This document shows positions 8,613 to 12,251 of a stretch of 64,000 nt of DNA, piece after piece. Origin of the DNA: Myxococcales bacterium. GTDB lineage: Bacteria; Myxococcota_A; Polyangia; Haliangiales; Haliangiaceae. Numbering within the stretch: position 1 is the stretch's first letter; each line of letters starts with the position of its first letter. Under the pieces are notes generated by a model. It did no database searches. It was not told the DNA's origin and saw nothing but the letters and a program-made list of their open reading frames with translations. Position numbers and translations under genes: made by a program. The stretch is from the NCBI GenBank assembly GCA_016794525.1, contig JAEUJY010000155.1, forward strand, positions 62,001 through 126,000, read 5' to 3'.

Positions 8613-10982
8613 ATGCGCGCACGCCAAGCGATGGGGATCGCCACCGCCACCTTCTTGATCGCCTGCGGCGGCGACGACGGCCCGTCGAGCGAGCTGGTGT
8701 GCGGCGACGGGACCAGCGGCGCGCTCACGCCCGGCGGCGTGATCGTCGTCGACGCCAAGGCCGCCAAGGACCTCGCCGGCGCCGCGGTCCGGGCCCAGGC
8801 CGCGACCACGGTGCCGACCGCGGCGGTGACGATCGGCTGCGCCGCCGACATCGTGCCGGCCGGCTACGTCGCGCTCGGCCCGGCGGTGACGTTCGGCCCA
8901 GGCGGCGCCGCCAGCGATCGGCCGTTCGAGCTGACCCTGCCGTTCAAGGCGGCGCGGTTGCCGGCGGGCGGGCTGCGCCGCCACGTGCGCGTCGTCGCCA
9001 AGCGCCACGTCGGCGACGGGACGCCGTTCTTCCCGCCGGTGACCGGCCGGGCCATCGACGACGTCGACGGCTACGCGTCGCGGATCACCTTCCGCGCGCC
9101 CGAGCTGATCACCTACCAGGTGGTCGCGCCGGCCGACGCCGGCGCCACCGAGAGCCGCCGCTTCACCTACCGCGCGATCGTCGGCATCTCGATGGGCGGC
9201 AACGCGTCGATGTCGATCGGCCTGCGCCACCGCGATCGGTTCGACTTCATCGGCGACCTCGGCGGCGAGCCCGGCCCGGCGATGACCTACTCGCTGGCGA
9301 TGTTCCGCGACTTCTTGTTCGGCGGGTTCTGCACCGCCGCGCCCGACGACGGCGGCGACGTCGGCGCGCTGTGCCTCGACGACCAGCGCCCGGCCGCCGC
9401 CGACCAGTTCGAGATCAAGAGCGACTTCGAGCACATGACCTACCAGGACGGCGAGGGCGTCGGCCTGACCTTGCGCCGCAACCTGTACATGAAGGCGGCG
9501 CGCGATCTGTCGCGCGCGCTGGGCAACCCGGCGCTGTACAACCCCGACCCCGCGGCCCACGGCTACGCGCCGCCCGGCGTCGACGCCACCTACCTGGCGC
9601 GCGCCGCCGCCGATCGCTGCGCCAACCCGCTGACGCTGACCAGCTTCCACGACCGCGAGTTCAACCCCGACGGCAGCCTGCCGGTGATCACGTTCTGCGA
9701 CGGCGGCGACTCGGCGACGCTGGGCCTGGGCGTGTTCGATCCGGCCCAGCCCCAGGGCAACCCGGCCGAGGTGCTGCTGGCGGTCGACGTCAACCGCAAC
9801 GGCCGGCGCGACAGCGGCGAGCCGATCATCACCGACCCGTTCGAGCCGTTCGCCGACGTCGGCGCCGACGGCGTGGCCGACGCCGCCGAGCCCGGCTACG
9901 ACGCGGCGACCAACCCCGATCCCAACGGCGACGACTACCACGCGCTGCGCAACCCGCGCGGCACCGAGTGCGATCACGATCGCCAGGAGGGCGAGCCGTA
10001 CGAGGACGTCGGCCTCGACGGCGTGGCCGGCACCTGCCAGTGGAGCGCCACCGCGACCGCTTGCTACGACACCGGCGAGGGCGACGGCGTGTGGACCCAG
10101 TCGCCCAACCTGAGCCGGTGGCTGACCGGCGACCTCGCCCGCAACCTGGCCGCGCTCGACGACGCCGAGCGGCGCCGGGTCGGCATCTGGATGGACGCCG
10201 GCATCCGCGACTTCTTGAACGCCGGCGTGTCGGCCAACGCCGGCATGGGCGCGCTGATGAGCCGGTTCGGCATGGCCGGCGGCGTCTACGACGGCTTCGG
10301 CGCCCTGGCGGGCGGCGCCGAGGGCAGCTACGACTTCACCCAGGTGCCGTGGGGCGACCTGCCCGACAACGTCTTCGTCCGCTACGGCGACCCCGACGCC
10401 ACCGCCAACCAGATCAACCAGGGCGACGGCCGCCACGTCGGCGCGCCGGTGCAGGTCATCAACCGGGTGTCGTCGGTGTTCGCGTGGATCGACAAGCGGC
10501 TGCCCAACGGCGATCGCGACGACGAGGGCACGGCCGGCGAGATCCGCATGGGCCAGACGTTCACGCCGCCGACCACCGGGCGCGACACGCCCTACGCGAT
10601 CTTCCTGCCGCCCGGCTACGCCAACCCGGCCAACGCCAGCCGCCGCTACCCGGTGGTGTACTTCCTCCACGGCTACGGCCAGGAGCCCGACGACCTGGTG
10701 GCGCTGTCGGCGGTGTTCGAGAGCTACATGATCGCCAACGATCTGCCGGCCGAGCAGCGCTTCCAGAAGTTCATCATCGTCTACGTCGACGGCCGCTGCC
10801 GGCCCAACGTCGACGGCGTGCCGGTGCCGGCGGGCGGCGACGGCTGCGAGGGCGGCACGTTCTACATGGACGCGCCGGCCGGCGGCCTGGCCCGGATGGA
10901 GACCAACCTGCTCGAGCTGATGGACTACGTCGACGCCAACTTCCGGACCAAGGCGCCCGAGCAGGTGTCGGTGGTGAAGTAG
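8613..10982 (+). CDS. Esterase-family lipoprotein with circularly permuted motif order
   Basis: 789 residues, with an apparent lipobox (LIAC) near residue 17. Residues ~60-160 resemble a strand-rich ZU5-like domain. A nucleophile elbow follows, RAIVGISMGGNAS with Ser193, typical of the esterase D / PF00756 family. Next come a region around DAGIRDFLNAG (candidate acid) and DGRHVG (candidate His). Near the C-terminus stands the block that normally opens this fold: YPVVYFLHGYGQ (His686), VYVDGR, GGTFYMDAP and LLELMDYVDANFRT. The protein ends where the nucleophile strand would normally begin, so the halves are swapped relative to the family. The substrate is unknown. The starting ATG is the last one before the signal peptide. 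Confidence 0.72.
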   Translation: MRARQAMGIATATFLIACGGDDGPSSELVCGDGTSGALTPGGVIVVDAKAAKDLAGAAVRAQAATTVPTAAVTIGCAADIVPAGYVALGPAVTFGPGGAASDRPFELTLPFKAARLPAGGLRRHVRVVAKRHVGDGTPFFPPVTGRAIDDVDGYASRITFRAPELITYQVVAPADAGATESRRFTYRAIVGISMGGNASMSIGLRHRDRFDFIGDLGGEPGPAMTYSLAMFRDFLFGGFCTAAPDDGGDVGALCLDDQRPAAADQFEIKSDFEHMTYQDGEGVGLTLRRNLYMKAARDLSRALGNPALYNPDPAAHGYAPPGVDATYLARAAADRCANPLTLTSFHDREFNPDGSLPVITFCDGGDSATLGLGVFDPAQPQGNPAEVLLAVDVNRNGRRDSGEPIITDPFEPFADVGADGVADAAEPGYDAATNPDPNGDDYHALRNPRGTECDHDRQEGEPYEDVGLDGVAGTCQWSATATACYDTGEGDGVWTQSPNLSRWLTGDLARNLAALDDAERRRVGIWMDAGIRDFLNAGVSANAGMGALMSRFGMAGGVYDGFGALAGGAEGSYDFTQVPWGDLPDNVFVRYGDPDATANQINQGDGRHVGAPVQVINRVSSVFAWIDKRLPNGDRDDEGTAGEIRMGQTFTPPTTGRDTPYAIFLPPGYANPANASRRYPVVYFLHGYGQEPDDLVALSAVFESYMIANDLPAEQRFQKFIIVYVDGRCRPNVDGVPVPAGGDGCEGGTFYMDAPAGGLARMETNLLELMDYVDANFRTKAPEQVSVVK

Positions 10983-11078: not shown

Positions 11079-12251
11079 ATGCGTCTCGCCAAGCTTGCCC
11101 CGGTCCTGTTCGCGCTCACCGCCACCGCCTGCACCCAGCTCGCCGCCGACGACGAGCCCGATCCCGCGGGCAAGGCCTGCACCACCGCCCGGGTGATCGC
11201 CGGCGACCCGACGTCCAGCGCCAGCGACACGACGCTGTGGAACCCGGCCGGCCACCCGGCCAAGGCCGATCCGCCGATGCACTTCGGCAACGTCGTGCAG
11301 CGCGGCCGGACGATCCTGGTGTCGACCGGGCGCTCGATCTGGCGCCTCGATCTCGACGCCGCCGCCCCGGCGTTCGTGCGGGTCGCCGGCGACGAGGCCG
11401 GCGCCGCGGTCTACCGCCCGACCGGCGCCTGCGCCGACGTGCGGTTCATGGCCAACGAGGGCCTGGCGTGGTTGCCCGACGGGCGGCTGATCACCGGCGA
11501 CGACTGGGCCAACGGCGTGGTCGAGCTGTCGGATCCGCTGTCGCCGAGCTGCACCGCCCGGGCGATCGCCGGCACCGCGCGCGAGCTCACCGGCACCGAC
11601 TCGCCACCCGGGCGCGTGTACATGGAGGGCGACGTCGAGGGCCCGGGCGCGACCGCGCGGTTCGCGGCGCCCGACGACGCGATCAGCGACGACGCCGGCA
11701 ACGTCTACGTCTGGGATCGCGGCAACAAGAAGATCAAGCGCATCGCCAACGACGCCATGCGCACCGTGACGACGGTGTTCACGCTCCACGACGAGCTGCA
11801 GAACGTCAACGCGATCGCCTGGGCCCACGGCGCGCTGTACGCCGGCGGCATCAACTTCGACGGCACCCGGGTGATCAAGATCAACGTCTCGACCGGCGCC
11901 AGCGAGCCGTACGTCAACGACGCCGACGTGCCGCGCCCCGACCGCTCGCCGTCGGCGGCCTCGCTGCCGATCACGATGGTCGGCCTCGGCGAGGACCTGC
12001 TGGTCTACGCCAGCGGCGGCTACCTCTACCGGATCGCGCCCGACGGCGGCGTCACCCACGCCGCCGGCATGGGCACGCGCAACCCCGACCTCACCGCCGC
12101 CGACTACGCCGGCGACCTCCCGGCGCTCGACGTGCCGCTGCACTTCACCGACGGTTTCGTCGGCGGCGGCAACCTGACCGTCGACGGCGGCCACGTGCTG
12201 GTGCCGTCGTTCGACGCCGGCTGGGGCCTGTGGGACCTCACCTGCGAGTGA
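11079..12251 (+). CDS. NHL/SMP-30-type beta-propeller lipoprotein
   Basis: 390 residues. The start chosen is the ATG at 11079, preceded by GAGGAG and followed directly by a lipoprotein signal (APVLFALTATAC); an in-frame ATG at 11022 would put extra residues before the signal. The mature protein has repeated blade-like units (GRSIWRLDLD, NEGLAWLPDGRLITGDDW, AGNVYVWDRGNKKIKRI, GALYAGGINFDGTRVIKI, GGYLYRIAPDGGVTHAAG), consistent with an NHL-like propeller exposed in the envelope. No catalytic signature is recognised. It lies 96 bp after the permuted esterase on the same strand and may belong with it. Confidence 0.65.
   Translation: MRLAKLAPVLFALTATACTQLAADDEPDPAGKACTTARVIAGDPTSSASDTTLWNPAGHPAKADPPMHFGNVVQRGRTILVSTGRSIWRLDLDAAAPAFVRVAGDEAGAAVYRPTGACADVRFMANEGLAWLPDGRLITGDDWANGVVELSDPLSPSCTARAIAGTARELTGTDSPPGRVYMEGDVEGPGATARFAAPDDAISDDAGNVYVWDRGNKKIKRIANDAMRTVTTVFTLHDELQNVNAIAWAHGALYAGGINFDGTRVIKINVSTGASEPYVNDADVPRPDRSPSAASLPITMVGLGEDLLVYASGGYLYRIAPDGGVTHAAGMGTRNPDLTAADYAGDLPALDVPLHFTDGFVGGGNLTVDGGHVLVPSFDAGWGLWDLTCE

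Follow-up and report, generated by a model that had tools for sequence, protein, structure and literature searches.

The alpha/beta hydrolases make up one of the largest superfamilies of enzymes, and natural rearrangements of their fold have been described previously. In a 2024 classification (PMC11878206), the recorded permutations and reversals are confined to beta1-beta2, with 3fle, 2z8x, 1lgy, PF11187 and PF20591 as examples. These are natural rearrangements within the fold, as is very probably the one described here. However, the beta1-beta2 cases shift peripheral strands only, whereas in the present family a half-sheet, beta2-beta4, appears to have moved and the cut lies beside the nucleophile strand. 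Engineered permutants of Candida antarctica lipase B (CALB) and RhEst1 (cited in PMC3320104 and PMC11757225) share the fold; they are man-made and their sites were chosen by the engineer, in contrast to the present family, which is natural and extends across the phylum. Further natural permutants, such as saposin/swaposin (PMC3320104), also swap one half of a domain for the other, but in a different fold, and they differ further in that no duplication intermediates were seen in the present family. We found no natural permutation at this site of the hydrolase fold in the open-licence papers searched, and an earlier report elsewhere is possible.

The best PDB sequence matches of the present protein are the CE1 feruloyl and acetylxylan esterases (7xrt, the XynZ feruloyl esterase domain 1jjf, 6rzo and 5vol). 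It shares with them the repertoire of strands and motifs, the GxSxG nucleophile, the HG oxyanion loop, and an Asp and a His in their usual places relative to the sheet. Unlike them, the family shows a chain order rotated at beta5, an acidic lid of about 300 residues between beta6 and beta7, a lipoprotein signal, and a tail and a strand that flank the cut. The present study concerns what is very probably an exported lipoprotein carrying a naturally circularly permuted PF00756 (CE1/feruloyl-esterase-like) domain.

The features of the gene within the window, that is, the whole 64,000-nucleotide stretch of DNA analyzed, are collected in Table 1. The column of the predicted lipid-modified Cys18 holds Cys in 86% of 72 aligned family members. 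In members of about 700 to 740 aa, the match starts only at query residue ~170-180. Some other Myxococcota proteins, 630 to 1100 aa long, carry the accessory domain (residues ~13-170) too, for example L117-L119. The protein ends in ...NFRTKAPEQVSVVK, directly followed by the stop codon, and the length of its tail is nearly constant (11 residues past R778 in 117/151 members).

Table 1. Positions of the predicted parts of the permuted esterase gene in the window
Feature	Position	Strand	Basis
Putative permuted esterase lipoprotein gene, 789 aa	8613..10982	+	open frame; full-length homologues
Predicted signal peptide and lipobox LIAC, putatively lipid-modified Cys18	8613..8666	+	sequence
N-terminal accessory domain, residues ~30-170, variable	8700..9122	+	absent from many members
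Predicted new N-side edge strand of catalytic domain, residues 180-187	9150..9173	+	covariation with 783-787
Beta5 and nucleophile elbow, TYRAIVGISMGG, Ser193 (codon 9189-9191)	9165..9200	+	conservation; PF00756 116-145
Beta6, FDFIGDLG, residues 210-217	9240..9263	+	alignment; covariation with beta7
Lid between beta6 and beta7, residues ~218-517	9264..10163	+	alignment jump against colinear esterases
Acidic lid segment, residues 390-490, DVNRNGRRDSGEP ... EPYEDVGLDG ... DTGEG	9780..10082	+	invariant Asp/Glu
Beta7 and predicted catalytic acid Asp533, WMDAGIRD (codon 10209-10211)	10173..10211	+	conservation; rotated PF00756 match
Beta8 and predicted catalytic base His608, GDGRHVG (codon 10434-10436)	10365..10442	+	conservation; beta7-beta8 covariation
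Putative new linker, helix F to beta2, residues ~629-656	10497..10580	+	alignment, profile-match start
Ancestral N-terminal half: beta2, beta3, helix A, beta4, helix B	10581..10943	+	PF00756 3-116
HGYGQ oxyanion loop after beta3, residues 686-690	10668-10682	+	
C-terminal tail APEQVSVVK, residues 781-789	10953..10979	+	covariation with 180-187

An earlier note on this DNA had proposed a natural circular permutation, with GISMGG (Ser193) first and the HG block (686-690) last; the frame, its coordinates and these motifs were found as described. It had predicted that PF00756 would hit the protein twice, each time in part and with the pieces reversed, and PF00756 is indeed the only Pfam match of the 789-aa protein (1.6e-12; 48.2 bits against a curated cut-off of 22 bits), falling in two stretches. 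In the profile search of the genome, residues 654-783 (window 10572-10961) fit profile positions 3-116 and the GISMGG region (window 9159-9257) fits positions 116-145, so that the two pieces stand in reversed order and both meet at profile position 116. Since another PF00756 protein of the same genome is matched colinearly from profile position 1 to 249, the model itself is not the cause of the split. Among 24 diverse family members, 22 also matched PF00756. A phmmer search against PDB sequences likewise hit the XynZ feruloyl esterase 1jjf as two reversed stretches.

Rotating the sequence restored colinearity. In its native order, the protein matched PF00756 in two pieces (48.9 bits), while the rotated reading gave a single colinear match to profile positions 3-145 (50.1 bits), and removal of the lid from the rotated reading extended it to 3-197 (56.8 bits), thereby gaining the acid strand. 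Even after rotation the match reached only position 145 or 197 of 251, and there is no single colinear full-length match to PF00756. A single colinear esterase is ruled out by the reversed stretches, which become one stretch only on rotation. The 24-member family profile aligned with 7xrt_A in the same manner: query 623-702 to 25-105 and 762-789 to 116-144, then query 172-209 to 145-183 and, weakly, 478-517 to 203-245. Thus, the C-terminus of the family ends at position 144 of this feruloyl esterase and the nucleophile block begins at 145, an exact abutment. This 144|145 boundary, which reads as a textbook circular permutation, bears out the expectation that the C-terminus would stop where the nucleophile strand would begin. 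The anticipated linker of a few hundred residues, in contrast, shrank to about 28. It is the poorly conserved stretch between the point where conservation of the second half ends and residue ~654, where the profile match begins; the remainder is lid, beta7, beta8 and helix F.

The strands thus follow one another along the chain as beta5-6-7-8-2-3-4, which is not the canonical order, and the block order agrees with this in 189/190 ORFs. We asked how they are arranged in space by mean-field DCA on 151 members (effective N ~118), with strand boundaries taken from the alignment. The pairs beta3-beta4, 3-5, 5-6, 6-7 and 7-8 were the top 5 of 20 parallel pairs in 12/15 settings, and the expected neighbours ranked high with Mann-Whitney p values of 6e-5 to 2.6e-4, in a map in which hub columns 404, 559, 785 and 788 carry phylogenetic background. 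Beta2-beta4 gave a strong antiparallel score. The sheet order read from this strand-pair covariation is 2-4-3-5-6-7-8 with beta2 antiparallel; the beta3-beta5 pair joins the two halves and the beta6-beta7 pair spans the lid. An AlphaFold prediction from a four-sequence alignment had a pLDDT of 29.8. The covariation pattern points to a single, uninterrupted alpha/beta-hydrolase sheet to which both halves contribute.

The permuted order would also be compatible with a domain-swapped dimer, in which beta5-beta8 of one chain are complemented by beta2-beta4 of another, as covariation between the halves cannot separate cis from trans and the linker has to cross the sheet from edge to edge. However, about 28 residues should be able to span seven strands (~35 A), and nothing in the analysis favours the swap, so we regard it as quite unlikely, though it is the best placed of the alternatives.

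The residues of the presumed active site are spread over both halves. Every one of the 151 complete members carries Ser193, Asp533 and His608, together with G191, M194 and G195 of the G-x-S-x-G nucleophile elbow and, in the other half, Gly687 and Gly689. The count for Ser is partly by construction, because the 151 members were gathered by the motif G-[ILVFMY]-S-M; the five members that this filter dropped on account of their motif also carry the Ser (G-[AP]-S-M-G). The rotated profile match and the beta7-beta8 covariation place Asp533 after beta7, which, with His608 after beta8, supports their assignment to the hydrolase triad positions. The earlier note had drawn attention to His686; it is present in HGYGQ, but it belongs to the HG oxyanion motif and is not the catalytic His. 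This position is His in 138/151 members and Pro in 12/151, and the latter could point to a permuted but catalytically dead relative that serves in binding. Nevertheless, Ser, Asp and His are kept in all 151 members across divergence to ~30% identity, which makes such a pseudoenzyme improbable, by a shade more so than the swapped dimer.

The permuted order is widespread in Myxococcota. Near-full-length orthologues with 73-77% identity were found, colinear with the query, in three independent public MAG contigs. Profile searches returned ~110 family members in 379 Myxococcota genomes, and a member below 1e-60 in 135/318 genomes of the class; the members in these two lists fall into about 31 family-level groups, and identity among members falls to ~30%. 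We extracted ~190 homologous ORFs, a set in which a few genes are present more than once, and found the order Ser block, Asp/His block, HG block in 189/190, the remaining one being cut by a contig end. Such a recurrence goes well beyond what chance would give. The same block-order test read the canonical esterase L121 as HG-Ser. Neither the normal block order nor an intermediate of tandem duplication or fission occurred among the 190 ORFs, and no viral or plasmid relatives of the permuted family were found. The earlier suggestion that orthologues be sought in Myxococcota to guard against misassembly is thus answered by a swapped order throughout; misassembly or a frame artefact is ruled out by the three independent contigs together with the 135/318 genomes. 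That the locus is a misassembly or a decayed fusion, two incomplete fragments in tandem that do not cooperate, is hardly credible: either half alone does match just part of PF00756, but the three MAG contigs agree, ~190 ORFs from ~31 family-level groups share the architecture, the invariant triad and oxyanion glycines are split over the halves, and the covariation at the seam is sheet-like. The reversed PF00756 pieces, the rotated colinear match, the orthologues of the same order and the conserved triad residues all uphold the natural permutation proposed earlier. On this sequence evidence, the swapped order goes back to an old natural rearrangement of a very common enzyme fold; a sequencing error does not explain it.

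The 593-aa frame L111 (minus strand) is a very divergent permuted member with a reduced lid. It may represent an early branch that could help to date the permutation.

The two new ends themselves covary. When ~53,000 windows were compared for antiparallel ladders between the halves, the highest score fell to residues 180-187 with 783-787, which lie at both new ends. This score of 3.09 compares with maxima of 1.66-2.08 in 20 uncoupled simulations on the family tree, in which the maximum at the place of the clasp itself was <= 1.38; in random half-samples the signal is weaker, with a rank of 1 to 20. At 181/786 and 183/784, most pairings are polar or matched in charge (K/D, R/E, H/D and, rarely, E/R). 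These values indirectly support new termini that are adjacent in one fold, and they suggest that a two-stranded clasp of the new ends stands in place of the lost connection.

The alignment to colinear esterases passes directly from position 209 of the query to position 478 (profile numbering), and it is at this place in the alpha/beta-hydrolase fold that lids are usually inserted (PMC11878206). D392, E411, D415, E461, D465, D469 and D486 of the lid are invariant in 151/151 members. These residues lie in the patterns DxNxNGxxDxxE and GEPxxDxGxDG, the former resembling EF-hand-like loops, and the acidic part of the lid probably binds Ca2+ through such loops.

We propose that the cut in the chain fell between helix B and beta5, the nucleophile strand, and that the ancestral ends, one past helix F and the other before beta2, were joined via the ~28-residue linker. 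The resulting order would be beta5-Ser193, beta6, acidic lid, beta7-Asp533, beta8-His608, helix F and linker, continuing with beta2, beta3-HG oxyanion loop, beta4, helix B and the stop. The half-sheets would be joined along the beta3-beta5 seam, giving a single normal sheet and active site, and the cut-flanking strands 180-187 and 783-787 would pair antiparallel, bridging the broken connection. Calcium held by the lid may stabilize it. Membrane-anchored as a lipoprotein, the protein would most probably be a conventional Ser-His-Asp esterase, which may hydrolyze an extracellular, probably carbohydrate-linked ester. As a first guess, this could be an ester on a plant or microbial polysaccharide, since the nearest solved relatives are feruloyl esterases. 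On balance, we lean towards the fuller account in which the family was opened beside the nucleophile strand and secured by the clasp, possibly with completion of the active site during export awaiting late folding of the C-terminal part and calcium in the lid.

A natural cut through the catalytic heart, fixed across ~31 Myxococcota groups, would mean that evolution has matched the work of engineers. The family may serve as a natural test of the influence that the order of synthesis, the linker and the terminal clasp have on how the nucleophile elbow folds. Furthermore, colinear profile searches would report such permuted enzymes as partial or broken.

An acidic loop like that of the lid was also seen in the 818-996 aa ORFs L112-L115 from other Myxococcota families (DPHGDDF...NPGGTEGNGRFDEGEPLADRG). 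Going by their sequences, these are probably LptD outer-membrane proteins. Having just the acidic insert in common with the family, they were considered as non-permuted ancestors and rejected, as they read as LptD-like proteins with a similar acidic loop. The shared loop suggests a mobile acidic module common to unrelated surface proteins.

Among the few neighbours scanned, no family was common to the gene neighbourhoods. In the window, the downstream gene (11079-12251) encodes a lipoprotein with a DUF6923 repeat, and the gene upstream, which lies on the opposite strand (from 5970 on minus), a GAF-GGDEF diguanylate cyclase. In the members L069, L073, L075 and L079, the oxyanion HG is replaced by PG, together with an altered residue following the nucleophile (SMGA) and a one-residue deletion. 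The NCBIfam model 'acidic double-disulfide repeat' (NF033662) was matched by 5/24 scanned members. Members such as L029, L032, L041, L043 and L080 have CNDGxDNDxDGxxD insertions in HG-half loops, close to PPGY and between C729 and C745.
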